Assembly: GCF_029227915.1 (NCBI RefSeq)
Contig: NC_079878.1
Coordinates: 250,001-314,000 of the forward strand
Length of the DNA stretch: 64,000 nucleotides
Reading direction: 5' to 3'
From: Hydractinia symbiolongicarpus
Taxonomy: Eukaryota; Cnidaria; Hydrozoa; Anthoathecata; Hydractiniidae
Of this stretch, positions 9,591 to 64,000 are shown in pieces; within the stretch, counting starts at the first letter, position 1, and each line of letters starts with the position of its first letter. The notes beneath the pieces were generated by a model. The model had not been told where the DNA came from. It searched no databases and saw only the letters and a list, made by a program, of their open reading frames with translations. Made by a program: the position numbers and the translations under genes.

Positions 9591-9654
9591 AGGGTATTAC
9601 AAGATATTGGGCAGGAGACCAATGTTAGGAACATCTTCAGATGTCTTTTAGATT

Positions 9655-10745
9655 TTAAAGAAGAGATTTGTATATAGTCCTTTGTTGTTTATTTTAGTCT
9701 TAGAAGCGCTGTCGATGGAGTTCAGAACAGGTTGTCCATGGGAGTTATTGTATGCAGATGATTTGGTTCTCATAGCAGAGTCGATGAAAGAATTAGTTGA
9801 AAAGTTTGAGAAGTGGAAGAAAGGACTAGAAGAGAAAGGGCTGAAGGTAAACACAGCAAAGTCTAAAGTCATGATAAGTAGCATTGCAGCCAAGTGTGAC
9901 CTTGTAGTTGGAAAGTGGCCTTGTGGAGTTTGCAGGAAAGGGGGTGGTGGTAACTCAATTTTTTGTCAGACTTGCAAGCATTGGGTACATAAGAAGTGCA
10001 GTAGTATTAGTGAAAGGTTAAAAGCTGACATACAGTTTGTATGCAAGCGTTGCAAAGGTGAGATTATAGAGAATGAAGTATTTCCAGCTTTAATGATGTA
10101 CAACAGTGGCTCGTTAGAGATAGTTAAAAACTTCTGTTACTTAGGTGATATGGTGGGCAGTGAAGGGGGTGTTGGAAGAAGTGTTACTTGCAGGATAGAT
10201 TCTGCTTGGAAAAAGATTAAAGAGTTACTTCCTTTATTGACTAGCAAAGTCCTGTCAATTGAGGTAAAAGGTAGGTTGTATGAGGCCTGTGTAAGAAGTG
10301 TTATGTTGTACGGTAGTGAGACATGGGCAGTGAAGCAGGAAGATCTTGACCGTTTAGAAAGGAATGATATGAGAATGGTTAGGTGGATGTGTAATGCCAG
10401 TCTGAGAGACAGAAAGAGTTCAGATGAGCTAAGAAGCAGGCTAAGTCTCCGTAGAATTAAAGATGTTATCCAGATAAGAAGATTGAATTGGCTGTGGCAC
10501 TTGGAAAGAATGGAGGAGGATAATTGGGTAAGAAAGTGTAGAGACTTAACAGTTCCTGGGGCAAAGCCCAGAGGCAGACCGAGAAAGACTTGGCAGGAGG
10601 TTATAAGGACAGACTTGATAGAGAGGAAGTTGAGTTTAGATCTAACACAGTCTAGATCAGATTGGAAGAGGGTCATTAATATACCCCGTCCAACCCATGC
10701 TAGAATGGAAAACGGACGTTAAGCTGAGAATGATGATGATGATGA
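9655..10745 (+). mobile_element. 5'-truncated non-LTR retrotransposon with an open reverse-transcriptase C-terminal ORF
   Basis: The frame is open for 346 codons (9682-10722). It starts inside a reverse-transcriptase palm with the catalytic YADD box (LLYADDLVLIAES, about residues 25-37), followed by the GLKVNTAKSKVM region typical of LINE enzymes. A Cys/His-rich PHD-like segment comes next (CGVC, CQTC, HWVHKKC, CKRC, about residues 74-125), then the conserved 3' domain (YGSETW, RRLNWL, RGRPRKTW). The copy ends in gatgatgatgatga, a simple-repeat tail usual for some LINE clades. The endonuclease and most of the RT are missing. The lack of internal stops suggests a fairly young insertion. Confidence 0.9.
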
Positions 10746-31171: not shown

Positions 31172-31541
31172 ATGGAAAAGTGGAGAATTTTTTGTTCCAT
31201 TTTTTTGGTTGTACAAGTGTTAATTTGTACGCGAGCAGAAATTATTGAAAAGAAGAACTTTCTTATATGTCCTGAGGAGAAGGATGTTAGACATATTGCT
31301 GATGTTACAATCAGTGGAAGTATACGCGAAATAAATCGTAATTTCACGTATGCAGATATCAATGTTGATGAAGTATTAAGTGGAAATGAATACTTTCAAG
31401 ACCAGAAAAATATTTCTATTAGTATAACTGCTGAGTATCAAGAGAAATGTGATATTCTACAGACCGGACAAAGATTGGTATTCTATCTAAATAGAGGATA
31501 CAAACTTTTAGGCACATTAAACAATTTGTTGACATTCAAAG
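31172..31541 (+). CDS. Exon 1: signal peptide and NtA/NTR-like domain
   Basis: The start is the ATG before a clear signal peptide (FCSIFLVVQVLICTRA, cleavage near residue 22). The rest, from CPEEKDVRHIADVTISGSI through EKCDILQTGQRLVFYLN, resembles the OB-fold NtA domain of agrin and the related NTR/TIMP fold: an early Cys, a V.G.I strand, a V..VL.G strand, and a C...L..G...VFYL segment. It carries two N-glycosylation sequons (NFT, NIS). The donor after TTCAAAG leaves phase 1, and splicing directly to 33762 makes GAT (Asp). The family call is moderate. Confidence 0.75.
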
Positions 31542-34500
31542 GTATATTTGTCATTTTTTTTTAAAAAAAAATTACCTGTGAAAACTAGAAATATTTAGTT
31601 TTTCTCCTTCCTACTTTGTGTTTGAAAAAAGTTAACACCTTATTTTCAATACCATAATTTTTATAATAACATCCTTCTTTTATTTTATTTCTTTTTAAAT
31701 TCTTTATAAAGGATATTAAAAAAGACGATGTTGTTTCGTCTTTTCTCCTAGTTGAAAAATAGTCGACGGAAATGCATAAACAAAGCCTAGGAAAAACCAG
31801 AGTCACAAATGCTACCGCGCGCCACCTTTTTTTTAAATAGAGACATATATTTTACATTAACCCTGGAACTGTTTTTTAAACTATGCATGAAATCTTCCGA
31901 AAATTTATGGAGTATGTTCCCTGTTTTATAGCTTTAAAATTCTTTTCAGTAATAGACCTTACAATCTATCAATATATTTTTTAATTATCTTAATATTTTG
32001 CAAGTTAGCGGTTTAAATTACCAATAATCAAATCAAGTTAAGAAACATCGTGTTCCTTGTAAAAAAACGTGTAGCACTTTTTTCTTCGACAGGAAATAGG
32101 CTTTAGAGAGAAGGAAAAAGATCATACGCGTTTGAGTTTTGAGGTTAGACGTACTTCAGATCAGTCGAGTAGTATCTTTGCTGCATCATAGTAACCAAAG
32201 GACCACAATGTAAAAATAGTAGTGTATCATCACAGAAAAGACAACAAACATATTAAAAACACAAACATGTTTAGAAATTCTTTTCCAGGCCATTTTATCC
32301 AACGCGGCAAACCATCAAATAAGATACTGATGATAGAAATGGGAACGAGGTTGACGAAACTTTACTTTCGTTTATAAGTTGCTTTGTCTGCCGGCTTATA
32401 TCTTAAGTTTGTTTTTCGGCAACGGTTAATTAAACCGAGAAATAAAAGTAAACATATCCATGTGGTTCACCGCGCGAAACATTCGAATACCAGTGTTGCA
32501 GGTTGTTGCAGACTTCTTGATGTGCAATCAGATTGTTTTCTGAGAATGCTAATCGGCGATTCACAACGAAACTTAGTGGAGTAAGAAATTTTCTTGTTGT
32601 TGGTAATGAGATTTAAATTTGAGTCAGTCAAGGAAAACTGCTAGATATATATTATAATTTTCTGTAAAGAACACACTATATATAAGTTTTATGCATATCA
32701 AAATGTGCAATAAGAGAAATGTCAAATATGAGAGAGAGATCCCGATTTATAAGGTTTTCCATAATTGATTAATTTGACAGTATATTTTTAACTTGTTAAA
32801 AGGACACTCTAATTTAATAATTGATAAATATTTCAAATCCTGATTCAACATTGGGATTTAACATACTTGATACATACAAGGGATGCGATGCCAGTAAATT
32901 AAAGTTATTTAAGATTTTAGTGCTTTTTTGCCTTTGCTGAACATGTTCTTTTAGAGAGAAGCAAGACAATGTAAATTGCCACCAAGGAAAATTTTTTTTT
33001 CAGTTGATCAGAGAAAAAATATCTACGGTTTGGTCTAGATAATTAAGTGGACTTAAATTAAGCTTGAAAATACTGAAATAGTGAAGAATATAAAAATCTA
33101 AAGTCATCTTAATAGCAATATATATGTAAGAACTTTGTGGAATCTTACATTTAGCTAATATTGGTAAAACATTTTCTCCAAAAAAGAACTGTCTAACAAA
33201 CATTAATTGCAGTGCTTTTTGCATCTTTATATCTGTATAAATCTCTCAATTTTATTATTATCCCATTTACCCTATGTATGTGTGCCAGAACTATTTTTTA
33301 GCAGACAGACAGATAGAATTCCCCTTATTATTAGTAAAGAAATATACATCACTTATTCTTATCTTTTCTTAATTTATATCTAACTGAAAATTGCAATCCA
33401 ATAGATTCAGTAATAATAATTAGTAATAATAAAGGTATTGTTGTTTAAGAAATGAGGCATATGAAATCTTTGCGAAAGTTATAGAGACAAACAGACAGAC
33501 ACAGATAGCATATATATATTAGATCAGAATTTTTTATATATATAAAATGACTGTGTAATTCAGTCCTGCAGGCTTTTGTCTTATTTCAATCTTACTATAC
33601 TCAATCTTTTCAGGTTTACACTATTTTACACCAAAATTGTATTCAAGCTTTCAATTTTTTTTTTAAAAAAAATCATGTAATTGGTATTTAACGGGATTAG
33701 AACTATGTATGTAAAGAGACTTTGTTAATGCAAATTTATGTATTTTTTTACTTATATTTAGATGGCAACAATGGCTTTGGAGTTTCAGCTCGTAAAAGAC
33801 GAGCTGCAGAAGCCACATGTTCCAAGAAATGTTCCTATGGTGGTCACTGCGACATTCATCCATACACAGGTCTTGCATTCTGTTCATGTCATAAGATATT
33901 TTGCACAAAAGAATACGATCCAGTTTGTGGTGATGATGATTACACATATCCAAATGAATGTGTTATGAGGCATAATTCTTGCATCAAACAAAGAAAAATT
34001 ACAATTTCTTATCGCGGAGTTTGTAGTAAGTACTTTAACAACTTTTTTGGTTCTAAAATGTTTGTCTATGTAAAACTTTGCCCTTAAAATCTAGAACACA
34101 TTGTTAAAATTTCTCATTCACAATTTTACTAAAAATTAACAAAAAAAAATCAATTCTGGTAATTAACTTCTACTACTTTAGAAAAGAATCTGTTTTCTAA
34201 TGCCACTGCTAAAGCTTTATCATTATCTTCACAATAATAACAAACTAATTTTGTAATCAATATCTCTAATACGTGTTGTAGTTTTCTAAGTAACTGAAAA
34301 TTCAAAATGAGGCTTAGATATGTTTATGTGAAAAACACAATCAAGCTTAGAATATTCTTACAATATGTTTATTGGAAAAAAAACTTGAAAGTTGAAATGA
34401 TCCCTTTTCTTTTAGTAAAAGAACAGAGACAAAATTAAATGTATAATTGCAGAAAGCAAGTTCAGACATTAAAGTGGTGTGCATTAAGTCTTATTGCGTA

Positions 34501-37500
34501 TAAGAGATTAGAAAATTAAAATACACATAACACGAGAAAAACACACATGAGAAGGATTCACCAAGGCTGGGCAATATGCATAGCATATTGCTTAAGCAAT
34601 TCTCGTATCTGAGCCTTAATATGCTTATAGGCATTATATGCTGATAAAAAAGCATGTATGTATCAATAAAAGTTAGGAAAACCAGATATTGGTTTATAAT
34701 TATTAGAAGCAATCAGATTGTTTCACCTTCTTCATATAATAATCCTTTTAAAATCTTTTTAGACCTGTTCAGTTGCAAAGATTTACGTGATTCTGGGTAT
34801 GCTCATCTTGACGGCGAATATTTTTTCAATCCTGTCAAGTCCTGCAATTTTCCAATCAAAGTTTATTGCCATGGTATGAATACAAACAATCCAAAAGATT
34901 ACATCACACTTCCAACTGGCCCTGTTAACAATTATGCTATCATTTATGACAAAAGAATGCCATTTGCTTCAAAGTATAAAGATGAATGCATCAGCCCTCA
35001 AAATAGCATTGTCTATAGCAAATCTGGTATTACTCGATTTAACAAGGTTTGTTTTTAGATTTCCTAATAAGCTGTTTTTTTGTTGTTTTTTTTGAAAGTG
35101 AACATGTTTTTCATTTTTATTTTTCAATTACATCAAGTTTGTTAGCCAGTAATTCTAAGTGCATGGAACCTATATATTGAAAATTTCTGTTGTTAAAGCA
35201 GGATGGGATGGGTTGGAGTTATTCTTTAAAGGAAATATCAAGTTTTTTTGTACAGAAAACCTTTAAAGAGTATATACCTTTTTTTTAAATCTCAGTTGGG
35301 AAAATGATCCTAATATTCTGATATACATGTCCAGGTTAGAGTTAACTTCAACTCCATGGCTATTGTTCAAGATGATTACCAATATGCGGAGACTAATTCA
35401 AATGGTTCTCCCATACCTTTTGGTACAGCTGGTGATTGCTATTCTGCAAGTCTAAATCAAGAATGCAGAAAGGGAGGATTCATGATTGATCTGACAGGAA
35501 CAGGTTTAAAGGTAAAAGACAATGTTGAATGGACTGTTAAATCTGAAACACCTGGCATGAAAATAAGTGGATTCAACAATGATAAAGGTTTGCAAATATC
35601 TGCTAAATGTGGTGGTTGGTGCGGACTATGTTTACCAAAATCTAGCCTGCGAATTGAATTAGTTAGATGCAATATGAATATTGGTAAGTTTTTGCGTCAT
35701 GCAATTTTGCACTATGTTAACATGTCCTTTAGGCAGCCCTGTACATACATAATAATGTATTATTTTTCGTAGAAATGTGTACTGGTATAAGTTGTCCTTA
35801 TTATGGCCGTTGTGAGGAAGTTGGAAACAGCTTTCAATGTCAATGTTCAATTGTGTGCACCAAAGAATTTTCTCCTGTTTGTGGTGATGATGGGAAAACC
35901 TATAACAATGAATGTGAAATGCAAAAAGCTTCATGCAATCGAAAGAAATACATTAAAGTTCAATCAATGGGAGAATGTGGTATGTTTTTTCTTTTGTTAT
36001 AAATAAAGCTTGTAGTTGTTAGTAAAAGTTAATATAAAAATCTATAAAAATATTTGCTTTTAGGCAAAGGATCATGTGCCACTAAAAATTGCCACAATTA
36101 TGCAACCTGTGATGTATCAAGTGGAAAAACTACATGCAAATGTTTTCATCAATGTGACAAAGAGTTTAAGCCAGTTTGTGGGTCTAATTACAGAACCTAT
36201 ATCAATGATTGCCATCTTAAATCTGAATCTTGCAATAGACAAGCCAAAATTACAGTGGCAAACCAAGGCGTCTGTAGTATGTATCCCAATTGTTGTTAAT
36301 AATTAAAAAATAGGTTTTTCATTTTATGATGAGACAATATCTTAACACTATAGTGATGAGGTGTTATTAACACTTGGATGTGAAAAATGTTTTGTTTTAT
36401 AGGCAAAAAATTGTGAAAACTGTGAAAATAATGTAAACTGTATTTTGTTATATAACTCTTAAAACGCTTTTGAACATATTTTAAAAATTGCTATTTTTGT
36501 CATAAAAAATTCTTAGCATTTGCATATATATTTATAATAATACAGAGACTGTGTCTGTCCGTAACAGGCAAAGTGGATGTGCTCATTTTCCTTTGATGTT
36601 GCCGAAAAATGCATGTCTAATATGCTAAGTTTTCTGACGTTATGGCGCGACGTCAATAACACCTTTAATGTCAATATCCTATATTAAATTAATGAGGCCA
36701 TTACAGTGCAACTAAAAATTTGAGGCTAAATAACTTGGAAACGAGGTGGTGACGTCAATGATTTTTCACCGCGTGGGTAACTAGGAACCACTTAGGACCA
36801 ATTTGGTAAATTTCCCAAATCTGGGTCACCAAATCCGTTTCGGAATGGACGGTTTATGACGTCATCTAAAAACCTTCAAACCTTAATATCTCAGCAACAG
36901 TTTGTAAAAAGTATATAATCCTATACATTTTCTTGATCAGCGTTTTAAAATCTATATGATGAAGGCAACAGGTGTACAAATTTCTAAAAAAAAAATTCGG
37001 TTTGGACGAGGCCATTGCAGACGTCTGCAAAATTTTTAAACCTTTATATCTCATTAACCGCTCATCAAAAGCACATGATCATATACATTTTCTTGATCAG
37101 CGCTTTAAGCTCTCCACAAAAGAGGCAATATGAAAACAAAATTCTAAATTTATTTTAGTGGATGGGTTGCTGACGTCATCAAAATTTTTTTTCCTGCCTG
37201 AGTGGATTTTTCCACGGGCCTTATCGACCAGTATATTTATAAAAGTTGTAAAAGCCTTTGTAGATATCCTAAATATCTTTATATGTTGTTATAAAACTGT
37301 TCAGAATCTTCTATGCAAAACATAAACATCTGCGAGTCTTGAAATCTAACTTGTTATTTCGCACATATTTCTAAAATAAGCAAAGTAGGAATTATGGAGC
37401 ATCATTTTGAACACTTATTTTTTTACTAGGATATGCACCAAATAAACCATTTGCATTTGATGTTGTGTTCGCTTTGGGTGGATATGGACCTGATGCTGAT

Positions 37501-40500
37501 GTTTTGTTTAATCGTCAAAAAGAATTTGTCAACCATTTTCTTGATTCTTATCAATATCAAATCGAAAATGGTTATGTTAACATTGGATTGTTGACATATG
37601 ACCGCAATGCATTTATTGTAAAAAATTTTAACGAACACTTTGTAACACCATACATTAGAAAATATGTAAACAATTTAAAGCCATCAAAAAATGGTGCTGC
37701 TATAGAACGTGGAATGGACGCAGCAGCTGATTCAATTTTCCCAAATGGGCAGAAGAACAATTTGAAATTCTTAGTTCTATTTACAGATGTGTCAGGATTT
37801 GCAGATAAGACATTGGTTGCTTTAGCAAGAACGAAGTTGCAGAATCAAGGTGTGGACACCATTATGATAGGTGCTGGTAATAAAGTAAACAAAGTTGATT
37901 TGATTGGTATGGTAAACAAGCCAAATAACATCATAACTGGTTTGACGTCAAAAACCTTTTTGACTGCCTACACTGATGTTATCGAGAAATTTTTTGAAGG
38001 TATGTTTCTATTTTAATTTTTGGTTTTCCATTAACTTTTGATTTTTATGGAAATTTTGTTGATAATCATGTTTAAATAACTGTGGTCATACAAATGCCTA
38101 CATTTCAGCACGTTTTAATCACTAGGTTTTTTTGCTATAAACTCTGGACTTGACATGATCTTGCTTTTTATACAATGTTGTTTCTTCTAATTATTGTGCC
38201 AAGGCGTAAGCATTGACATTATTTCCAATGATGTAAAATTCATTGTGGATTATAGTACTTATCGCTATTTTAGTCTATGACAAAAGCTCTTTATTTTTGT
38301 GAACAACTTGCCTTGATTTTCCAAATTAATGTTAAAAATCAAGCACTAATATGATCAAAGAAGCATGACATAATGCTTGATATTAAATTAACTATCCACT
38401 TCGTAGATCAAAAGTTTTTGTCAGAAGAAGATTAAATGTGTACTTTACTTGTAACAAATTTGTAAAAAAATTAGATTAAGTGCTGAATCATGCTGCAATA
38501 TTTTCTGCTCTAGCACGATGCCGACAGCTTGATTGTCAACAGGGTGAGCTTTGCCAGAAAGATAATATATATGACATAAAATGTGGATGTGCACAGAGTT
38601 GTACCTCAGAGTATGAGCCAGTGTGTGCAAGCAATGGAAAGTCATATGCCAGCTCCTGCTTGCTGAAAAGAGAAGCCTGTATCAAGAAGAATAGTGTTCA
38701 TGTTGTATCAAAAGGATATTGTCGTATGTTAAATTATTATTTTTGTTCTTTTAATTATTTTTTTTTGGGGGGGAGGGGTGTAGATTTGAAACACAGAAGT
38801 TATAAAATTACATCTGCATACATTTAGGCAAAGTCATAAATAGGACTTTACACAAGTAGTAGTTTTACCATATACTGCAATTATATTGATTTATTTTATA
38901 TTTCATATTTTACTTATAAAATTTTAAATTTGTAGGTATTGAGAAAAAAATGGATGTTGTTTTTGCATTTGATGCTTCAGACAGTACATCAGATGACAGT
39001 TTTGCGCAATTCAAAACATTCTTGCAAAATGCTTTGAAAGCATATGAAATTTCCCCTGAGAAAGTTAGAGTTGGTTTACTTCTTTTTGGAAGGCAGACTC
39101 CGATTATTGTAAGTTTGGAGAGGGGAGATAACCAAGATTATGTGCATCAGGCAATTAAAACAATGAGGAAGCAAGGTAAATTAATCCATAGTCAGGACTT
39201 TAAAAGTTTAAGTTGCAAAACTTTTATGTTACCAATTGCAAGTTCAATATGTTTTAAACAGAGACAATTCTTGCCATATGATCACAGTTAAAAAAGAAAA
39301 TTTAATCAAATTGGCAAGCATATCACTAAATTATACTGATGATTAATTTGGTCTCAATACTTTAAGATATATAATTAAAAATTTATCAATTTTTTTTCTC
39401 TGATTCAGGAGGAAAAGGAGATTTACCAAAAGCACTTTCAGATGTACTATCAAAAATGTTTTTGAAATCACCACGGCCAGATGCAGACAAAGAGATTATT
39501 TTGTTTACAAATGGTGCTGATGTTCCCAGCAGTTATCAATTGGAACAAATATTAAAAAAGTTTTCAGAAAACAAGATTAACATGAAATTTGGAATTACTG
39601 GAGAGGTATTAGAAGGGTTGCGCACGACGCTTACTGATGGTAGAAGTGACGATAGTTTGATTACAAAGGCTAATGAAGAAAGTTTTACAAAGTTTGTTGT
39701 TTTTATTTCACCTTCAGAACCTTTACCAGGTATGCCATTTTTTGTTTATCAATTAAAATTTAATAACGGTATTGTTAAATTTAATGTTAACATAAATTTA
39801 ACAATACTGTTAATAATACCCTAGGATAAAAACATTTAAACCAAAAAGTACTTGAAAACATTGATAGATTTTCCTTTGCTTATGTCTACTAATTTCAAAT
39901 TACGGATTTGTATAAAACCTCATGGGAATAAGCAAGTAGGTTTTTCTTTAGAACAATCAGACATAATATTTGCACTTGGTGGAAATCAACAACTTACTTC
40001 AGAGTTTCCGAAACAAAAACAAGCTGCTGCACAATTATTGAAGCAGCTGCAAATCTCAAAAAGTGAAACCAGGATTGGAGTAGTGGTTTATGGGGAAAAA
40101 GCTAGTGTTGTCACACATTTAAAAAACACTGATGATTTTAAAACAATTCAAAATATTATCAAATGGACGGGAAAACCAACCCCAGGCTCAAATGTCAATG
40201 ATGTTTTGCTTGAATTACAAAATATGTTTTCAACAAAAAATGGAGCTAGACCTAACATGCCGAAGGTTGCCATTATATTTGCTGATGATAAAGTCTTACT
40301 AGAGCTTCCCCAATACAGAAAGTCGTTTACTAGTTTAATTGACTCTGGTGTAAAGGTTGTATTTGTTCATTCTGGTAAGGAATATGTCAAGCAACTTTTA
40401 CCTGAGACCATTAGAAAGAAGTTAACATTGGTTCCTGTTGATGAAGAAAAGGGATTGGACAATAAAGATACTGTAGGAAAAATTATTCAACAACTTAAAT

Positions 40501-52500: not shown

Positions 52501-55500
52501 AATTATTTCAATCTCAAAGGTGCTTCAAAGATAAACTACATTGGATGCATGCTAACTTTGCACTCTATTGATAAAATGTAGTGTGGTCATGCTAATAATA
52601 TTCTGCAGCATAATAATAACAAAATATATATATTTATGTCCAGTACTTTTATGTTAAGAAATAAAATCAAACATGCCTTTTTTCAGATCCAAAGCCCATC
52701 ATGGATGTAGGTTTTGTACTGGGATTTACATCAGAAATGTCATCAAGTGACTTTGATAAACAACTGGATATTTCTAAAGAGCTTTTAACATCATTATCCA
52801 AGAAAACAGATAATTTGAAGGCTGGAATCATAACATATGGCAACAGTGCTATTTTGCAGGGAAAATTAACAAATACCGATGATGTAGAGAGGCTTCTTTA
52901 TTCGCTTAACCTTAAATCGGGAGATGGTAATTTAAAAGAAGCTTTGCAAGTGGCATCAGATAATTTTTTTTTACAATCTAGTGGTGGAAGACCAAATTCA
53001 GAAAAAACATTGGTTGTATTTGTTAGCGAGACAATGGAAGATGTTGAACCTGCCGTGAAGTTATTACGTGACCAAGGTGTCAACATTGTAAGTATTGGTG
53101 TTGGAGGGAAAGTTGATCAGGATACCGTTGATAAAATCACTGGTGATGGCAAAAACGGCATCCTTATTACCAAAGATAATGATCCTAAAAATATAGATGA
53201 TGTCCTAGAAAAAGCAATAGAGGATTCGTTTACGGGTATGTAATATTCAACAGTTTTTTACTATTATATTTAAAAAAGACCTTATGATTTAATTTTTTCA
53301 ATAACTTATTCAAAGATGTTATTATTGTATGGAAGTTCCAAATACAATATTGCAGAAGGACCTTCATCATTCTAAAAAAATCAAATCCTTTTTTTAATAG
53401 ATCCATGTTTATCTTCACCATGTGGAAAGGATAAAACATGTGTACGTCAATCAGGAAAAGATGTGCATTGTGTATGTCCATCATGTAGTGATGTCAAATC
53501 ACCACATTTTGTTTGTGCCAGTGATGGAAGCACCCAAGCAAGTGAATGTCACATCAAGAAGAAAGCTTGCGTGCAAAAAGAAAATATCTTCCTAATTAAT
53601 AAGAAGCCATGTGGTAATTTTTTTGTTTACACATGTAGTTAAGATCCAAATTTTTTGTTTTGTTTGTATGTTCATTTGTTTTTTATATACTTGTTTTTTG
53701 AAGTTTTCATCAAGTTGATTTCTTTCAATTTTAATTCTTGTCATTGCCGTATTCTGTGCAAATACTTTTTTTGTACCTTTTATTTATTTTTTATTTATAT
53801 AGCATTCGACAAAAAGATGGACTTAATATACCTCTTAGATGTATCCCAATTAACAAATGAAGAAACACTTGAGTCAATAAAGAATTACATAAAGAAAGAT
53901 TTAGATTCTTATAATTTTTCCACTGGAGATAATGTTAGAATGGAAATTGTTTTATTCGATGACAGTGTACGGTCCATTGTAAAGCTTGATCAAGATATAA
54001 CCAAAGATGACTATGTGAATAACATCAACAGCATCACCCTAAAAGAAAAAAAGGAAGCAGATTTCAAAAAAGCATTTTCGTATATACTCTCAAACGTTCA
54101 ATATAGGTTCAGAAAAGATGCTGCAACAGTTTTGGTCCTCATTACAACAAGCAATAACAAAAACAGTGATGCATCCAAAATGTTATCTGATGTGTCTAAA
54201 TTAAAACAAGATGGTGTAAAAATTGTTACTGTAGGCCTTGGAAAACGAGTTGATATTGATGAATTAAATAATATTGCAACTGAGCCAAACTATGTCGTAC
54301 TGATTGACGATTCATCAAAGTTAGATGAGAATGTTTCCAGCATTAAAAGGGCTGTTTCAAAATCAACAGGTAGCTCTTTTTTAGGTTGTTTTATTTTATT
54401 TTTGTTCTTTTAATTACATTATGTTAATGTGAATGTAACTTTAAAATATTTATTTTAAATGTAATTATTGTTGTTTTTGAGTTTTGAGTCTTTATGTAGC
54501 TTTTTATTTTAATATAGCAACTGCATCATCAATGGAAATTCTTTTCATACTTGGCACTGGTCAGTCTAATGAGCAAACTGCTACAAGAAACTTTGAAAGA
54601 GAAAAAGAACTTGTCATAGCACTATTGAAGAAAGATAAATATTCTCAACATGATGTTCATGCAGGTACTATAATATACAGCCCTGCTATATATAAGGATC
54701 AGTTAACTTCTAACAAGGAATATCTCATTAAAAGAATTCTTGAGTATGATAATCTTAGTGGCAATGACGTTACAAATGGATTAAACGAGGCAATTCGGGT
54801 GTTTAAAGCAAGTAATCAAAACTCGAAAACTAAATCAATAGTTTTATTTACCGATCAAAACCTTGATGACATGGCAAAAAATGCTCTTGTAAGTATTAAG
54901 GACAATGGAATGAAAGTTATCGTTGTTACGTTGGGAAAGAACAAAAAAACTGTCAATGACAAGTTCCTAAAAGAAAACAGAATTCCGTTAGTTATTGATA
55001 ATGATGATTCTCTGGTGGAGACTGTTGAGAATATTGATTCAAAATCAGGCAAAGGTAACTCATCACTTTTAATCATAGAAATGTTCCTTGACTGCTTTTG
55101 GAGATGTAAAATAAGGAAATTAGAACTTGACCAATGTGATAGTCTTTTAAAAAAATTTAAACTGAATTTAGATTATCATTAAATATTTTTTATTATTTTG
55201 AGAATATTTTAGAACTTTATCTCCTTTAAACCAAATCATTGTATCAGTGTTTTTTTATTTTTTTTAGATCCTTGCGATGAAAAAGTGTGTCACCAGTTTG
55301 CATCATGTTCACGAACAGAAACAAACACAGCGAAGTGTGTTTGTCGTCAATGTGAAAATAAATATAAAACTGTTTGTGGAAGTGACGGCTTATCATATGC
55401 CAGCCAATGTTATCTTGAATTAAGAGCTTGTCAAACAAATAAAGAGATCAATGTGGCAGCAATCAAACCATGCTGTATGTAATTCTTGTTTACTACTGCG

Positions 55501-58500
55501 TTTGATTTTAACCCTCCATTTACCAACTATTTGGTAAATTGTTCATTTTCTTTTTTCTTTTTTGTAGCTCTTACCTTAGCAAGTGACATTGTTTATGCTA
55601 TTGATACATCAAACAACATAGATTACAATGATATAGCTCAAATAGTTCAATTTATCAGTAATGACATAAATCATCATGGCAGTAAGTCTAAAATGGCCCT
55701 GGTAAACTATGGATCGAAAGCTGAAGTTATTGCTAGTTTGGATACTGATCAACAAAAATTGGTTCATGTTTTATCAAAATTGCAAAAATTGGGTGGTTCA
55801 CGTAGGATTGACAATGTGCTTGCTTTAGTTAAAGACGATATCTTTTCAAATACAGCAAAAAGTAACAACACCAAACAACTCATACTTTTTGTTGGTGGAA
55901 GATATAGCGAATCTGTTAAAGAAAGATTACTTCTATTATTAACAACTCTTAAAGAGAGAAGTGTCAAAATAATAGTTGTTGGTTTTGGAGAAAACATAAG
56001 AAAAGATGACTTCGGCTACATTGCATCTCAAGATAAAAACGTTGTTCTTGTTAATCATGTTACTGATCTTCCCAAAGTTGTTCCTGACGTCTTTGAAATC
56101 GTTGGTAAGAATACAGGTAGGAATACAGGTAAATTTTCATTCATTAAGCTTAACTTGAATCCGTTTTTGGAATACAAGCAATTAACAGAAAATAGAAAGA
56201 AATCTGGTACGGTACTGTTATGTTGTTCTTTATAGCAACATCACCAAAACTTCAACTGCTCTTCATTGTTGGTGCATCGTCATCTGATCAACAGAAGCAG
56301 TTTCACTTACAGAAAGAAACAGTGTTAAGTATTGTTGATAAGTTGTTGATTGGTAAGAAAACCAAAGTAGGAGTTCTCTCTTACGGAAGGTACCCTTCCA
56401 AAGCTATCTCAATGGGAAAGTTTATAACAAATAGGGACTTGAAAGAAGCAATTAAAATTGTAAGCAACCCTGGAGATGGTAAAAGACTGGATCTTGCTTT
56501 ATCATCAGCAAAAACCATGCTAAAGGATGCACAGATTGATGGCGTTAAACAAAAGATAATTGTAATGTTGGACCGAAGGCCTGAACCAGATGTAAAAGGA
56601 CTTATCAGAGAGCTTGAAAACACTGGCATAGAATTAATAACAATTGGATTTGGTAAGAATATAAACGATAATATTTTAAACCAAATAACGGATTCGAGCA
56701 AAAAGCATGTAAAAGGTGACAAAGATATAAAAAAAGTTGTGGATTCAGTCAAGGATGCAGTGACACCAGGTAAAGTTTATGAGTTCTCTACATTAACAGT
56801 ATGTCAGCAATTTAGTTGATTTTTATTGTTATTTTCCATAAGAGTTTCTTCAAGGTAGTGTAGTTAAACAGAAACAAAACATGTGTACTTACACATTTAG
56901 AAGTATAAATGGAACATGATGTGTAACTTTAGAGTAATTTTCATCACCTCATTAAAGTTATTTTTTTCTCTTATTGTTAGATCCATGCAAAGAAAAAGCC
57001 TGTGATTTCTTTGGTAAGTGCCTTGCTAAACCAGACAGAACAACTGATTGTGTTTGTCCAGTTTGTAAAATGGAATACAACATAGTATGTGGAAATGATG
57101 GAAACAGCTATGCTAGCTTATGCTGGATGAAGCAATATGCTTGCCAACAAAATAAAAATGTTGCTTTACTACAGACACAGCCTTGTGGTATGCGTACTTC
57201 TCTTTTTGTTTCCGATGGATGTTGTTCTGACTCCTTGACTTTTTTTTATCAGTTGTGCTACAGGCCGTTATTTTTCTTTTCTTTCTGTTTTACATAATGT
57301 TTTTGCTGTGAAAAAGAATCTGAATTGTATTTCTGTTTTGCTATAGCTATTAAACTGTGAAAATCAACGTTATCTGATCAGTGGCAATCTTTATAACTAG
57401 TTAAAGAATTTATCTGAATGATAAAGAAATTGATTACAAAAGTTTTTCAGATTGTACATATATATATATTAACCACTAGCAGTTGAATGCATTGAAGGCC
57501 CTTTAATAAGTCTTATTAATAACGTTTTTAAGCTATTTAGATAAATAAAAGAAAAGATTCCTAAACGCATTGTATTTCCTTTTTGTTAGTTATTAAGAAA
57601 GAATTGGATATTATCTTTCTACTTGACCTTTCATCTGATGTTACAACCCATCAACTTAGTGCCATGAAGGACTACGTTAAAAACATGCTCAAGTCCTTCA
57701 CTTTGTCGGTTGAAGATGTCCGAGTCGGTCTAATTGGGTTTGGTGAAACAGCACAAGAATTTGTTGAATTAAATCTTGGTACTAATCAAGATGTTATCAG
57801 TAATGGAATTTCTAAAATCAGCAAAATAGGTGGAACACGTAACCTAGATATTGGAATGATGCATATAGTTAACGAAGCCTCTAAGAGTTTTAGATTAAAT
57901 TCGAAAAAAGTTATAGTAGCATTGACAACTGGATCAGAACACCCCAAAAGACATAAAGAATTAACAGAAGCTGTAAAGAAATTAAAAGAGATGCATAGGC
58001 CCAACTTTATATTTGTTGAATTTGGGGATTCCAAATTGCGTTTTCCTAAAGTTGTAGATGAAACGACAGTCAATGCAAACACAGTAGATGAATTACCATC
58101 AACCTTCTCAAAAGTTATAAAAGAAATTGGATCTTCTGCTGGTAGGTATCCTTCACAAATCTTTTTATTTCTACAATAATATTATGTATTTTTAATGTAT
58201 TGTATTTCATCAAAAGATTATGACAAGATGCTTGTGAGATAAAATTTAAATCTTCCTTTTTATAAAAATAACATGTGTTCTGAGAGGTCTTCATTTGCCT
58301 GTGTGAGAAAATGAAAATGAAATCTCTATTGCTGTATTAACTGTATATCAACTACAACTGTTTTTGGTGATTTTGTGATTTGTGATTTATTTTTAGGCAA
58401 TCCCCACCCACTTGACATTGGTGTTTTAATTGGTGCTCAGTCTGGCGACAAGTTTGTTATGGCTAAAGAAATTCTTGAAAGAATGTTGGAAAAATATGAT

Positions 58501-61500
58501 TTCTCAAGTGGAAATAAAACAGTTGGAGTTATTTTATATGGCAAAGAACCTATTTTAAAACTTCCTGTTACCAAAGTAGTGAAAAAGACAGATCTTTTGC
58601 ACGAGATAAAAAGATTGAGGCATCCTGCAGATGGTTTCAGGTTAGATAAAGCATTGCAAAAGGCAGAACAAGAATTCTTTTCAGATTGCAGTCCTGGTAC
58701 TGTTGCTTGTCCAAACAAGATACTTCTTCTATTCACTGATCGTAAGCCAGATGAAAAGAGCATAGTACTGGCTGATAAATTTACATCTAATGATGTAAAG
58801 ATAGTATCAGTTGTGCTTGGTTTGCCAGAAAAGGATGATGTGAATAAGCTAGGGGGAAAGGATGCTGTGATTATCACACCAAAGTCTACTGATGCTGTAA
58901 AAGATATTTCTGATGATATTAAAGATGCCTTATCAATTGGTAAAGTTATTGTTTTTTTGTAGTACTTATTACAGCTTTACTTACAGAAGTAATATCATCA
59001 AGCGTCTTTTACATTCCAATTGTTTAATTTTATGTTTATTTAATCTTCTTTGTCTTGGTAACTTTACTATTATACTTCATTGATATCGATAAAAATTTTT
59101 AGAACATAAGTGGAATTTTAAGCAATGTAACATATGAAGAAAAACAATGACAAAGAACAATGTTCTGTGTCATCAAACCTATGGAGGACTAATTGTGATA
59201 TTATTTTGTTAACAGATGCCTGCAAAAATGTGAAATGTAATCATAATGGGGTCTGTGTGAAACAGGCTGATGGCTCAACGAAATGTTTATGCCCTACTTG
59301 CTCCCTGCCACTGAAAGTAGTATGCGGTTCTGATGGAAAGACATATGGTAATGAGTGTTTGATGAAGAAACGAGGTTGTTTAGATGAGGAAACAATAACA
59401 GTCACTAAGACGGAATCCTGTGGTATGTTCGTTGTAAAAGTTTATGAAATCTTATTGGCCTAATTCTTAAATTAACATATTGAAATATAGAAAAAAAACA
59501 TTCTAAAGTAATAAACTGATGTACGTCCCAGCATTTACTATAGTTTATTCAATGATAAGCATTATTTCAGATTGAATCTGTTGTTTTACTTATGTTTTAG
59601 CTGAATTAGTTTTCAGGTTCAGCATTGACAAAATAATGTGTACTTGATAGAAACTCTTTACTACGAGCCTTTACTACTATGTTTTTTCCAAATTAACCAT
59701 TCGGTTGTTGTTGTATTAGGTATTACAAATTCATTGGATGTTGTTTACATAATTGATGGTTCGTCGTCTGTTCCTCGCAAAGTTTTTGATGAAATGAGGA
59801 AGTATGTAAAAAATTCAATTAAGCTGTATAAAATATCTCCAGTAAAAACTAGATTTTCAATTGCTACATTTGGAAAAGACAGACAACACTTGCCTTTAAG
59901 TGAAGGCAGCACAGAAGAAAGTGTACGTAATGCAATTGATAACATGCAAAAATCTGGTGGAGATAGACGTATTGATCTTGAACTCCGAAAAATTGCAGAA
60001 GAAGTTAAACTTGGAAAGTTTAGAAAAGATGCCGGAAAACTTGTTGTATTGGTATTATATGGAAGAAATAATATTAATGGTGCCATTGATGTTGATGCAG
60101 CATCAAAACTTGTTAGAGGTAATTTTTTTACAGATTTTTTTATCCCTATCAAAAATTATTTGTAGATTGACTTAGATATTTTTGCATACTGTTACTTAGA
60201 TAATTAAAACATGTTAAGGAACAAGCAACAAAGCACCTTTCTTAATTGTGTCTGCAATTAGCATAAGGAAATGTAATACTGCATTGATTGGCAGTGACAA
60301 GATGAATATTTGCTTCAAAATAACATTTGTCTTTCATGTAACTAAATTTTTATAATAAAGTTGTGATTTGCATACGTTAGGTCTTGGTGTAAAAATTGCA
60401 GTCATTGGAGTAGGAGATAAGATCAACAAGGATGAATTGAACGCAATTGGTGGAGAAACGTCACCTGTTATTGTTAAGGATATCAATGAACTAGTTGACA
60501 CTATACCAGATATCTCAAAGATTGCAGCTGAAGCTTCAGGTAATTTTGTTAAGGTGCTACGTTATTACTAGACAGTACATTGCTATGTAGGAATATGAAA
60601 ATTTAACATGACATTTGTAATACAGTAAAGGAAATAAATTACCAAATTCCCTTTTTAGGAAAAGTTCAACAGTTGGACATCACTTTCATTTTGGGAGCTA
60701 GTAATAAAAGAAATGCTGATTTGCAGTCACAAGTGGCATATAAAATGATTGAAGAATATGATTTATCCTCTTCTGCAATTGCTGTGATTTTAAATAAACA
60801 AGCTTTTGCCAAGGTAGCTAAAGATATGGGACAATATGTATCAAAAAATGGACTGTTAAACTACATAATAACTCTGCGGGTAAGTAATAATTTAAATTTT
60901 TTATCTTTTTATATTTAATTATTTTTTATTAAAAAAATTTGTATTTAAATAGACTCCTATCAATGCTCGTAATTTACTGTCATCATTACGAAAAGCTGAA
61001 TCTGAAATCACCTACCGCCCTAATTCATCTAAAACAATTGTTTTATTTGTTGACAAATTGCCAACAACTGCAGATATAGAACAAGCAAGAAAGTTAAGAG
61101 AGAAGAACTTTAGAATTATTGTGGTTGGTGCTGGTTCAAAGGTTAAAAAAGAGAATTTAAAGCCTTTATCGGGTGATGTTGATAATCTCTTAATTGTTAC
61201 TGAAAAGAATGTTAATGATATTAGTAAAGAAGCAAGAGGCAAAACCAGCACAGGTAACACATTTAAAATTAACTTTTAATTTTTATGCATTTATTTATAT
61301 ATTCATTTCAATTTTAATAAACTGTTTTCTTATTTGCGATAAAAATCCCTATCTTTGTTGCAGGCATTTCATGCAATAGCTGTAAAGAACCAAAAACATG
61401 TTTAAAGAAACTCGACAACTCAGTAGAGTGCGTATGTCCACTATGTATTAAAGAAACTTTTAAACCAGTTTGTGGTAGTGATGGTAAAACGTATGCTAAT

Positions 61501-64000
61501 GTTGAATGCATGAATAACGCAGCTTGTACGCAGCATACACGACTTAGTGTGTTAAAGAATACAGCTTGTGGTAAGTTTTATCTATTTTATTATCTGTCGT
61601 TGCTTTTAGTCATTTTGCAGTGCTGAAAATGTTGGATTTTATTATTTTAGGAATGGATAAACCCACTGAAATTGTAATTGCTGTTGATGGTTCAGAAGAT
61701 GTAACTTTTAAAACCATGAACAAAATTAGAGATTATATTGAGAAATTGATCCAAACGTTTGAAATTTCCACAACAAAATCCAGAGTCAGTATTCTTGTGT
61801 ACAGTAATAAAGCAGACGTAAAACTCAGACTTAAAGAAGGAAACACAAAGCAGCGTGTGCTTTCAGCCCTCGACAATCTGAAGGGCAATGGAAAACGAAA
61901 TTTAACATTAGTGTTTAACACCATTAATAAATCAGTGTTAGATAAAAATTCAGTGCGTGAAGATGCAGGTAAGTATATTCTTTTATTTATTAATGGACCG
62001 AATGACCAAGAAAAATCGTCAAAATTTAATGAAATTCTTAAAAAACTGAAACGTGAAAACATACAAATCACTGTGGTTGGTGTTGGAGGTAAAGTAGCTG
62101 ATAATACTGTAAATAAAATCTCATCTTCGCCTGATGATGGAATTGTTGTGAATGAGAATGATTTATTAAAGGCACTTCCAGTTGTCGCTGATGGGTTAGG
62201 AAAATCAGCTGCTAAAGGTTAGACCCTTTCAAATTTTGTTTTTTTAATTTTTTGTATTATGGAAAATTGAGACATGGTTAAGGTTAAATATTTTTTAAGG
62301 CAGTATAAGTTTAGGCAATGTGCTGTAAACCTAAAACCATTCCTGTCACTGTGCTCAGCAATAGAATTAAAAAGCTGTTTCTTTAAATTATGATTTTACG
62401 GAATATTGAGAAATATGTCTGACAAGTTTTGACATTTAGTATTTATCTTTAGGTTCTTCAAAATTGCTTGACATGATCTTTGTTATGGGAATTGATGAAG
62501 GATCATCACAAAAAGAATTTCAAGTGCAAAAAGAAATTGTGAAAAAAATGATTGCTAGGGAAACCATATCGAACAGTGCAACATTAATTGGTGTTGTAAT
62601 ATATGGCTCAGACAGTATTACTGAAATACCACTTGGTTCATTGACTGATCGAAATCAGTTATTACGACGAATTGACACATTGAATGGACAGTCACCTTCA
62701 TCAGAAGGAATAAAGGAAGGTTTGCAGCTAGCAAATACAGAAATGCAATACAGTACACGACAAAACGCAGGAAAATCAATTATTTTATTTACTACTAAAG
62801 CTCCATTTTATGCAAAAGATCCTATTGGCAACATGGAAAAAGATGACATTAAAGTTATTGTTGTCGGTGTTGGGGAAAAAGTTGATAAGAATGACATAAA
62901 AGATGTGACTGGAAATGACAATGTGTTTGTGGTTAAAGACAACGATGATGTTGACAATGTGGTTGGTAAAATAACCGATTCTAGCAGACCAGGTAAAAAG
63001 CTTGATAACATTGTGTAATTTTTACAAAGAGGCATGTAAACAAACTTTCCCTAAATTGACTTTTGTTTTTTGTTTCTTTCAGTTCTGCGTATCTATGCAA
63101 ATTCACAAAAACAACAAGTGCTATTCATGAGTAGGCTGCAGCTAACACCATGCTTTTTTTATAGATCCATGCATAAAAAAAGACTGCCAGTTTTATTCTA
63201 TGTGCTTGCCAAGAAGTGATGGAACAGCACAATGTATTTGTCCATCCTGCGAGAAGTCATTTGCTCCAGTTTGTGATGACAATGAAGAGACACATGCATC
63301 TGAATGCTACATGAAACGTTATGCCTGTCAGAACAACCAAAACTTAAAGGTTACTTCACAAGGAGCTTGTAGTACGTGTTACCTTTGTTTTAAATAAGTT
63401 ACATAACTCTTTTTAAAATAGATGATTTTAATCGTTTAATTTAAATATGTTTTCCCTAGGTATCTCTGGTTATCTGCACGTTGCATACATGATGGACGCA
63501 TCATCAAATAATGCTTTGTATTATAATGCAATGAAAACCTTTGTTAAGAATAATGTGAAAACACTGCCTTTTAATGATGACAAAACTCATGTTTCTATCA
63601 TCAGTTATGGAAAGCCTGGTGATATTGATATTCTTTCTGGAAAACCTTCAAATACATTACTGAATCAGATTAAAGGTTTGTCTCCAAAAGAGGGCCGAGA
63701 AGACGTGCCAGCAGCTTTGATAACATTGAAGCGTTTGTTTGATACAGAAGTTTTCCCTAAAAGACCAGCAAAAGTTTTAATTGTTTTCAGAAATAACGGC
63801 ATACCAGCCGGACAAAAGTCTTCTTCTCTTCAAAGTTTTGACAAAATGAGAACAGATGATGATGTAAAGATAATAACAGTTGGTCTTGGTGAGCAAAACA
63901 AACAAGAAGATCTAGTGAAAATTGCTGACAATAAGGATAGCATTGCTATTATATCAAATGCTGATGAGCTTTATAAGCTGTTCCCTATTGTCAGTCGAGT
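31172..64000 (+). CDS. Giant secreted modular protein: NtA-like, follistatin/Kazal, GON and repeated FS-vWA-vWA cassettes (3' end outside window)
   Basis: I traced 46 in-frame exons with GT-AG borders, about 17.4 kb coding and about 5,800 residues, with no stop before the right edge. Order: signal peptide and NtA/NTR-like domain; RKRR site; FS1; GON; FS2; FS3; vWA B0; then eleven FS-vWA-vWA units and a twelfth begun. All module borders are phase 1, so cassettes can be added or skipped without shifting frame. FS modules follow the agrin/follistatin pattern (C...C.....C....C.C..C.......CG.DG.TY...C......C........C). vWA domains have the Rossmann pattern (hydrophobic strand, MIDAS-position loop, VGVIxYG strand, late VxVIGxG strand). 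No transmembrane segment or enzyme domain is seen. A large extracellular matrix, cuticle or capsule protein, or an adhesive or inhibitory array, is likely; the role is unknown. It could also be split into more than one transcript; continuity rests on matching phases and steady spacing. Module entries follow. Confidence 0.88.
33762..34025 (+). CDS. Exon 2: RKRR furin-type site and follistatin/Kazal module FS1
   Basis: After DGNNGFGVSA comes RKRR, a furin-type consensus, directly before the Cys-rich module. FS1 contains CSKKCSYGGHC and CTKEYDPVCG and ends at YRGVC. The Kazal P1 position (second residue after the Cys) is Lys, as in trypsin-type inhibitors. Intron 1 before it (31542-33761) is empty apart from a doubtful extra exon near 32289. 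Confidence 0.85.
34763..35683 (+). CDS. Exons 3-4: GON domain
   Basis: Exons 34763-35046 and 35335-35683 join in phase 0. They show the GON signature first described in ADAMTS proteases of the GON-1 type: SCKDL, DGEYF, VYCHGM, YITLP, ITRFNKVRV, FGTAGDCYS, GGFMIDLTGTGLKV, then KCGGWCGLC with paired cysteines near the end. About 211 residues match the usual GON length. No metalloprotease or thrombospondin repeat is found in front of it, so the domain sits in a new context. Confidence 0.85.
35773..36276 (+). CDS. Exons 5-6: follistatin/Kazal modules FS2 and FS3
   Basis: FS2 is exon 35773-35979 (CTGISCPYYGRC, CTKEFSPVCGDDGKTY) and FS3 is exon 36064-36276 (CATKNCHNYATC, CDKEFKPVCGSN). Both are phase 1-1 and both keep Lys at the Kazal P1 position. 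The intron between them is only 84 bases. They are the only adjacent FS pair in the protein. Confidence 0.88.
36537..37231 (+). mobile_element. ~690-bp non-autonomous dispersed repeat, near-full copy in the giant gene
   Basis: It starts with taatacagagactgtgtctg and ends with gagtggatttttccacgggc followed by cttatcgacca. It aligns with 18708-19372 over its whole length. CRE-type palindromes or near matches occur near 36648, 36750, 36857 and 37171. Both flanks contain tatatttata, a possible target-site duplication. It fills most of the intron between FS3 and vWA B0. Confidence 0.78.
37430..37999 (+). CDS. Exon 7: vWA domain B0 (type B, MIDAS Asp lost)
   Basis: One 570-nt phase 1-1 exon. The first strand FDVVFALGG ends in Gly-Gly where a functional MIDAS has Asp, which is the mark of the second vWA of every later cassette. 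Strands NIGLLTYD, KFLVLFTD and VDTIMIGAG follow the vWA order. No type A partner precedes it; FS3 is directly upstream. Confidence 0.85.
38514..40503 (+). CDS. Cassette 1: FS4, vWA A1, vWA B1
   Basis: FS4 is 38514-38723 (P1 Ser in CTSEYEPVC). A1 is split into 38936-39175 and 39409-39729 by an extra phase-1 intron; its first loop is DASDS, a complete DxSxS MIDAS motif, but the later aspartate position reads TNG. B1 is 39952-40503 with LGGNQ in place of the MIDAS loop and the strand VKVVFVHSG late in the domain. Confidence 0.87.
40762..43240 (+). CDS. Cassette 2: FS5, vWA A2, vWA B2
   Basis: FS5 is 40762-40971 (P1 Asn in CPNIYAPIC). A2 is split into 41393-41746 and 42220-42429 by an intron at a different position from that in A1; its loop is DNSNQ, so the second Ser is missing. 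B2 is 42695-43240 with FGLSG at the MIDAS position and VKIVVIGIGDDV near the end. Confidence 0.86.
43600..45492 (+). CDS. Cassette 3: FS6, vWA A3, vWA B3
   Basis: FS6 is 43600-43806 (P1 Asp in CKDLYDIVC). A3 is 44085-44648, loop DSSND, late strand VKVSIIGVGKGI. B3 is 44959-45492 and is the most diverged type B domain: its first strand is LLVFWPS and it is short (178 residues), but it keeps YKIILLGVGENI. Confidence 0.86.
45728..49227 (+). CDS. Cassette 4: FS7, vWA A4, vWA B4
   Basis: FS7 is 45728-45934 (P1 Ser in CPSLHKPVC). A 2.06-kb intron with a fold-back-like repeat follows. A4 is 47993-48550, loop DTSER, late strand AKVVIVGLNKDV. B4 is 48676-49227 with LFAASEN at the MIDAS position. The short minus-strand open frame 46887-47207 in the long intron shows no domain. 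Confidence 0.86.
46655..47900. mobile_element. Candidate fold-back element in the FS7-A4 intron
   Basis: Related sequences face each other near the ends: gagagttgcgagttcc with gtcagtgagttgc at 46713-46744, and caactcactg with agcaactcacggaactcaca at 47821-47868. Short hairpins (cgccttaaaaaggcg at about 46660, acccctttaatagggt at about 47884) lie just outside. It explains why this intron is the longest among the cassettes. Confidence 0.45.
49378..51246 (+). CDS. Cassette 5: FS8, vWA A5, vWA B5
   Basis: FS8 is 49378-49584 (P1 Asp in CTDIYEPIC). A5 is 49881-50447, loop DSSDG. B5 is 50710-51246 with LLGATGD at the MIDAS position and VKVVVIGMGNEV late in the domain. The following intron (51247-51345) is 99 bases and free of in-frame stops. 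Confidence 0.87.
51346..53235 (+). CDS. Cassette 6: FS9, vWA A6, vWA B6
   Basis: FS9 is 51346-51555 (P1 Glu in CDEAYAPVC). A6 is 51828-52391, loop DISNA, late strand VRVLFIGFGSAF. B6 is 52687-53235 with LGFTSE at the MIDAS position and VNIVSIGVGGKV late in the domain. Confidence 0.87.
53401..55054 (+). CDS. Cassette 7: FS10, vWA A7, vWA B7
   Basis: FS10 is 53401-53613. Its Kazal loop is longer than usual (nine residues between the cysteines, CSDVKSPHFVC), so inhibitor geometry may be lost. A7 is 53803-54369, loop DVSQL. B7 is 54518-55054 with LGTGQS at the MIDAS position and MKVIVVTLGKNK late in the domain. Confidence 0.86.
55268..56769 (+). CDS. Cassette 8: FS11, vWA A8, vWA B8
   Basis: FS11 is 55268-55474 (P1 Asn in CENKYKTVC). 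A8 is 55568 to 56116 or 56128; a 12-base duplication gives two in-phase donors. Its loop is DTSNN. B8 is 56236-56769 with VGASSS at the MIDAS position. This is the most compact cassette, with introns of roughly 95-120 bases inside it. Confidence 0.87.
56981..58939 (+). CDS. Cassette 9: FS12, vWA A9, vWA B9
   Basis: FS12 is 56981-57187 (P1 Met in CKMEYNIVC). A9 is 57590-58141, loop DLSSD, with GGTRNLD at the usual MIDAS threonine region. B9 is 58397-58939 with IGAQSG at the MIDAS position and an extra Cys pair (CSPGTVAC) not seen in the other vWA domains. Confidence 0.86.
59216..61253 (+). CDS. Cassette 10: FS13, vWA A10, vWA B10
   Basis: FS13 is 59216-59422 (P1 Leu in CSLPLKVVC). A10 is split into 59720-60118 and 60381-60539; its loop DGSSS is a full DxSxS motif. 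B10 is split by a phase-0 intron into 60659-60879 and 60953-61253; it has LGASNK at the MIDAS position. This is the only cassette with both vWA domains interrupted. Confidence 0.84.
61364..62992 (+). CDS. Cassette 11: FS14, vWA A11, vWA B11
   Basis: FS14 is 61364-61570; its Kazal loop has one extra residue (CIKETFKPVC) with Lys at P1. A11 is 61651-62217, loop DGSED, late strand IQITVVGVGGKV. B11 is 62453-62992 with MGIDEG at the MIDAS position and IKVIVVGVGEKV late in the domain. Confidence 0.87.
63165..64000 (+). CDS. Cassette 12 (partial): FS15 and vWA A12, running off the window
   Basis: FS15 is 63165-63371 (CEKSFAPVC, P1 Lys; the usual CG after the loop is CD). A12 begins at 63460 with loop DASSN and is still open at the last base, having passed the late strand VKIITVGLGEQN. 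A type B partner is expected just beyond the edge. Confidence 0.85.

Follow-up and report, generated by a model that had tools for sequence, protein, structure and literature searches.

What kind of protein is encoded by the open exons that run to the end of a 64,000-nucleotide stretch of the Hydractinia symbiolongicarpus genome (NC_079878.1, positions 250,001 to 314,000 of the forward strand; hereafter the window, with its first letter as position 1)? The locus is probably a single gene for a giant secreted agrin-like extracellular-matrix protein, with vWA domains built into its backbone, that would serve as a multivalent link joining cells to matrix.

Gene model and domain order

In our curated model, the forward strand from 31172 to 64000 contains one open chain of 46 exons, encoding 5,808 residues with no stop codon. 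This reproduces the 46 exons in one frame and at least 5,800 residues of a first-pass annotation of the same DNA, a count that was known during curation. The exon-chaining script, which uses a codon score to join open exons bounded by AG and GT, yielded 39 exons and 5,192 residues at strict splice thresholds, and 49 exons and 5,871 residues at loose ones. Curation started from the loose chain; two very small exons within the intron at 45935-47992 were removed, the two halves of B6 were fused, and the edges of six other exons were shifted to domain boundaries. All 45 introns carry GT and AG, and 43 are in phase 1, the two phase-0 introns lying within GON and within B13. Phase 1 holds for every inter-domain intron (40/40), and 40 of the 44 internal exons are symmetric 1-1 exons. 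Ten cysteines are present in each of the 15 FS (follistatin/Kazal) modules. By simple arithmetic, the mass is approximately 0.64 MDa for at least 5,808 residues. Poly(A) signals were uninformative as gene ends, as AATAAA occurs at chance level (227 versus 207 +/- 15 expected), and Rfam and tRNA scans of the window were empty.

The chain opens with exon 1 (31172-31541), which contains the start codon, a signal-peptide-like stretch and an N-terminal domain, followed by exon 2 (33762-34025) with a basic RKRR site and FS1. GON is encoded by exons 3 (34763-35046) and 4 (35335-35683), FS2 by exon 5 (35773-35979), FS3 by exon 6 (36064-36276), and a single vWA ahead of the array, vWA0, by exon 7 (37430-37999; PF00092, 2.9e-14). 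From there on, all modules belong to FS-vWA(A)-vWA(B) units on the same strand, assigned by Pfam and numbered after their FS. Unit 4 (38514-40503) comprises FS4 at 38514-38723, A4 at 38936-39175 and 39409-39729, and B4 at 39952-40503. It is followed by unit 5 (40762-43240) with FS5 at 40762-40971, A5 at 41393-41746 and 42220-42429, and B5 at 42695-43240; unit 6 (43600-45492) with FS6 at 43600-43806, A6 at 44085-44648, and B6 at 44959-45492; and unit 7 (45728-49227) with FS7 at 45728-45934, A7 at 47993-48550, and B7 at 48676-49227. FS8 (49378-49584), A8 (49881-50447) and B8 (50710-51246) form unit 8 (49378-51246), FS9 (51346-51555), A9 (51828-52391) and B9 (52687-53235) unit 9 (51346-53235), and FS10 (53401-53613), A10 (53803-54369) and B10 (54518-55054) unit 10 (53401-55054). 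Unit 11 (55268-56769) is made up of FS11 at 55268-55474, A11 at 55568-56128, and B11 at 56236-56769, and unit 12 (56981-58939) of FS12 at 56981-57187, A12 at 57590-58141, and B12 at 58397-58939. In unit 13 (59216-61253), both vWAs are split between exons (FS13, 59216-59422; A13, 59720-60118 and 60381-60539; B13, 60659-60879 and 60953-61253), and unit 14 (61364-62992) contains FS14 at 61364-61570, A14 at 61651-62217, and B14 at 62453-62992. FS15 (63165-63371) opens a further unit, whose A15 exon (63460-64000) is still open at the window end. The eleven complete follistatin/Kazal-vWA-vWA units of the first-pass annotation, with more to come, therefore stand as FS4 to B14, the twelfth unit being cut by the window end.

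An HMM search of the joined translation, which that annotation had proposed as a check, matched Pfam VWA in all 24 vWA modules and Kazal_2 in all 15 FS modules (E <= 0.001); 20 of the 24 vWA queries were contiguous exon stretches, and four were spliced letters. The vWAs account for about three quarters of the residues. Beyond the array itself, a six-frame scan of both strands with array-derived profiles gave no match in the window below E 0.34.

Elsewhere in the window, an ORF at 9652-10719 (+) combines a reverse-transcriptase fragment with a PHD finger (RVT_1, 5.9e-10; PHD, 5.1e-8). Its C-terminal part repeats at 7359-7765 (-) and 22097-22390 (-) with 83-92% identity, and the ORF therefore belongs to a repeated element. 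A 2OG-Fe(II) oxygenase exon is found at 2507-2779 (-; 2.4e-7), and a weaker copy of 40 residues, 45% identical, near 5652-5765 (-); perhaps these represent two putative oxygenase genes in tandem on the strand opposite to the matrix gene. There are also two tandem arrays, one satellite-like at 478-1171 (23-base unit, approximately 30 copies, 87% matches) and one at 13195-13544 (53-base unit, 6.6 copies).

An octocoral relative and the N-terminal region

The closest relative found is uncharacterized protein LOC114518524 isoform X7 (3,733 residues; P0007 below) of the soft coral Dendronephthya gigantea, also a predicted gene product. When residues 1-760 of a query of 4,258 residues were searched, P0007 was the single match among 6,508 candidates, with 40% identity and 56% of the query covered by the tool's figures. 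A search with residues 1-1650 gave six matches among 5,362 candidates; P0007 was not one of them, even though it fell within the permitted length range. A third protein search returned two matches among 2,003 candidates, P0007 itself and one ADAMTS9. Proteins shorter than about 1,175 or longer than about 7,450 residues were never among the candidates. Because these searches are insensitive, having missed P0007 once, the absence of further relatives is weak evidence.

GON was found within the first 478 residues of P0007 (residues 203-393; 1.7e-49). It is missing from both the precomputed Pfam list and a whole-protein scan, and in scans of this kind single domains may go unseen when the protein is long and rich in repeats. 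Profile searches gave two vWAs and 36 FS matches, of which 35 were counted, the last being a fragment of 26 residues within the LamG region. Ahead of GON there is one FS; 31 more separate GON from the first vWA, one stands between the two vWAs, and two come after the second. In the tail, Pfam detects Laminin_G_2 in three stretches and EGF in one, and a second EGF-like stretch was seen by eye; the best PDB matches of the LamG region were three neurexin chains, then agrin.

P0007 and the Hydractinia protein share a basic site ahead of FS1, the FS-GON-FS start (GON being 40% identical over 204 columns), an FS array, and B-like vWAs that lack the first MIDAS Asp and are set apart by FS (vWA-FS-vWA). 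P0007 differs in having 35 FS but only two vWAs, with no FS-vWA-vWA unit and no A-type vWA, and in its LamG/EGF tail, which in the Hydractinia gene would fall past 64000. The kind of protein that the first-pass annotation could not recognise is therefore only partly new: its FS-GON-FS start, vWA-FS-vWA order and FS array are already present in P0007, whereas the long FS-vWA-vWA array was found nowhere else by these insensitive searches. No FS-vWA-vWA architecture was found in searches of the open-licence PMC literature, which is a weak negative as most subscription literature lies outside that scope, and none is described in the excerpted passages of PMC12549020, PMC4224354, PMC6079037, PMC11291548 and PMC10381214.

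The comparison with P0007 bears on whether two or more neighbouring genes, one agrin/GON-like and the other a separate FS-vWA-vWA gene, have been wrongly chained. In favour of wrong chaining, the model has introns of 2,220 bases (31542-33761) and, between FS7 and A7, 2,058 bases (45935-47992), and the interval from GON to the first vWA holds 31 FS in P0007 versus two here. However, the chain requires no stop or new start, its inter-domain introns share one phase throughout, and FS-GON-FS and vWA-FS-vWA occur together in one predicted protein, P0007. Wrong chaining is accordingly very unlikely, and we treat the locus as one gene below.

At the N-terminus, the GON domain of the first-pass annotation is real (Pfam PF08685, E = 7e-52). 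Its NtA label, which would be typical of a secreted agrin, was not confirmed in the exon-1 domain. Pfam gave no NtA match at a maximum E of 10, a setting at which HMMER drops most matches above approximately 0.1, and only NRG2_N appeared (0.044). A phmmer search against PDB found nothing meaningful, the best match being complement factor H (E 0.12), and an AlphaFold model of exon 1 built without an alignment reached a mean pLDDT of 39.7, unusable for a fold search. The domain may have an NtA/TIMP-like fold. The RKRR site, which is furin-like, lies at model residues 134-137 between this domain and FS1, and its counterpart in P0007 is an RLRR at residue 123 just ahead of the first FS. Judged from these motifs, the N-terminal domain may be released by cleavage at the basic site.

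FS modules, vWA classes and the age of the array

Past FS3, one or two vWAs stand between successive FS, and in a PDB search with unit 8, agrin was the top match through its FS. If P1 is placed by the rule that we assume for these modules, it is Lys in FS1-FS3, FS14 and FS15, Met in FS12, Leu in FS13, and in FS4-FS11, in order, Ser, Asn, Asp, Ser, Asp, Glu, Asp and Asn. Ser, Asn, Asp and Glu are uncommon at P1 of strong inhibitors. These modules raise the question of whether the protein is instead a multivalent inhibitor of proteases or a trap for growth factors, in which the FS/Kazal parts act and the vWAs are spacers. The ten-cysteine pattern of all 15 FS and the presumed P1 residues of the five Lys modules, FS12 and FS13 would fit this, and the N-terminal part of agrin is reported to bind BMPs and TGFbeta1 (PMC2874008). 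On the other hand, eight consecutive FS have presumed P1 residues of the uncommon type, and domains making up such a large share of the chain and falling into two distinct classes would be needless as mere spacers. We regard an inhibitor or trap as a highly improbable main function, and the matrix linker remains the preferred reading.

Position within the unit separates the vWAs into two classes. All 23 vWAs of units 4-15 are nearer to their own positional class, also without the first 30 alignment columns, and vWA0 and both P0007 vWAs score nearer to B than to A. In an IQ-TREE analysis to which six vWAs of protein P0004 were added, all 12 A domains came together (bootstrap 83), the 11 B domains grouped with both P0007 vWAs (84), the B side also took in vWA0 (65), and the A domains were joined by the P0004 vWAs (65). 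FastTree likewise grouped B with vWA0 and the P0007 vWAs (0.93); A formed no clade in that tree, and A9 adjoined B (0.68). Support inside the groups was mostly low in these trees.

The classes also differ at the metal site, as read by the MIDAS rule that we presume to apply here. The first MIDAS Asp is present in 12 of 12 A domains and in none of the 11 B domains, vWA0 or the two P0007 vWAs, and the full DxSxS occurs in only two A domains (A4 and A13). Conversely, the late Asp column, read by eye, is occupied in one of 12 A domains (A8), in six of 11 B domains and in vWA0, and in neither P0007 vWA; with vWAs aligned at 20% identity, loop positions are uncertain. Because the metal site is incomplete in every one of the 24 vWAs, most are expected to be without a bound metal ion, and integrin-type metal-dependent collagen binding is therefore unlikely for most. 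Two further features were seen in single vWAs: A4 contains, in its first exon (38936-39175, +), the sole RGD tripeptide in the 5,808 residues, and B12 (58397-58939, +) has two cysteines, being the only cysteine-bearing vWA of the 24.

On average, A domains are 20% identical to one another, B domains likewise 20%, and the two classes 17% to each other; the low identity within each class indicates that the array is old. Recent tandem duplication is unlikely given these within-class averages; Tandem Repeats Finder covered periods of up to 500, which is below the unit length, and its output was not informative on unit duplication. The FS average 34% identity here, compared with 46% and up to 98.5% in P0007. 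The farther apart two FS lie in the array, the less similar they are (r = 0.50, p = 0.0002); the vWAs have no trend of this kind (A, r = -0.14; B, r = 0.01). Mantel tests for whole-cassette duplication were not significant (A-B, r = 0.05; A-FS, r = -0.06; B-FS, r = -0.02), and the vWA signal is perhaps saturated. Judged from module order, growth by whole cassettes is plausible, with A, B and FS distances uncorrelated.

A more far-reaching and rather doubtful interpretation is that an agrin-type backbone independently gained a vWA array like that of collagen VI alpha-3 without the collagen, that the metal site is split between A and B so that the pair is the working unit, and that the result is an old fibre in which FS, A-type and B-type vWAs alternate strictly, perhaps conserved as a matrix fibre in one cnidarian lineage. 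The split is suggested by the first Asp in all A and the late Asp in about half of B (6/11), the site being complete in neither; that both P0007 vWAs have neither Asp counts against it.

Proposed role and comparison with known proteins

In the linker that we favour, FS spacers braced by disulfides would alternate with vWA pairs along an extended, thread-like chain. Its vWAs would bind other matrix proteins, for which collagens are our first guess in view of collagen VI and PTMP1, and mostly in a manner independent of a bound metal ion. C-terminal LamG/EGF domains would anchor this thread to cell-surface receptors or glycans; this tail is a prediction from one relative, as the C-terminus falls outside the window. 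With the N-terminal domain perhaps cut off at the basic site, the whole protein would span between cells and matrix at many points, and the FS might have a side function in growth-factor binding or protease inhibition. Of the functions suggested by the first-pass annotation, a structural matrix fibre fits best, and direct support was found neither for a capsule fibre nor for an inhibitor array.

A related possibility is that the protein is the framework of a specialised hard or sticky part, such as a skeleton or sclerite matrix, a capsule wall or an adhesive disc, with the vWA array bearing load. Excerpts of several studies point in this direction: VWA is one of three domains common to the skeletal proteomes of four corals (PMC11959691), agrin-like proteins predominate in Corallium biominerals (PMC7853314), the pedal disc of Exaiptasia shows up-regulation of an agrin with 10 Kazal domains (PMC6626399), and PTMP1 is a mussel thread protein (PMC4754843). 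However, the source organism need not possess a skeleton, and the agrin-like proteins of Corallium and Exaiptasia are described in those excerpts without vWA. A specialised framework role thus appears unlikely, and a general matrix linker is retained for the comparisons below.

The GON domain is known mainly from ADAMTS proteases. The likeness to ADAMTS9/20 and GON-1 is limited to this domain, which is 31% identical to that of Phallusia ADAMTS9 over 195 columns, whereas here it lies near the N-terminus between FS modules. No metalloprotease or thrombospondin repeats were found N-terminal of GON, a part that is complete in the model and contains only the exon-1 domain and FS1. GON is also carried by the Hydractinia protein and by an agrin-like octocoral protein, P0007.

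Among PDB matches of the vWA profile, collagen VI alpha-3 ranked first (10 stretches, 1.8e-188) and mussel PTMP1 second (8.4e-50). PTMP1 is reported to bind collagen and to contain a pair of vWA-like domains (PMC4754843); this pair resembles the pairs found here, but the PTMP1 chain is approximately 450 residues with two vWAs, compared with at least 11 pairs, each with an FS ahead of it. Collagen VI alpha-3 likewise carries many vWAs in one matrix protein, but here they stand as pairs with FS between one pair and the next. No collagen triple helix was found in the 5,808 residues within the window or among the domains listed for P0007.

Agrin consists of FS domains and a LamG/EGF tail in the consulted descriptions (PMC3927612, PMC1939731, PMC2874008), which name neither vWA nor GON; for the large agrin-like matrix proteins of Corallium rubrum, the Fig. 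4 legend of PMC7853314 also names neither. The Hydractinia protein resembles agrin in being secreted, by its signal-like stretch, and in its many follistatin/Kazal modules, and its relative P0007 ends in LamG/EGF. It differs in that LE, SEA and LamG are absent from the part within the window, the 46 exons of which belong to other domains. On domain content, we place the gene with the agrin-like proteins, most likely as one of the P0007 type in which the vWA array is new. Follistatin arrays as in agrin and vWA arrays as in collagen VI usually belong to separate building plans. Here, one giant gene unites the two, with phase-1 introns at all domain boundaries, and it gives a starting point for testing how matrix proteins of this kind came together.
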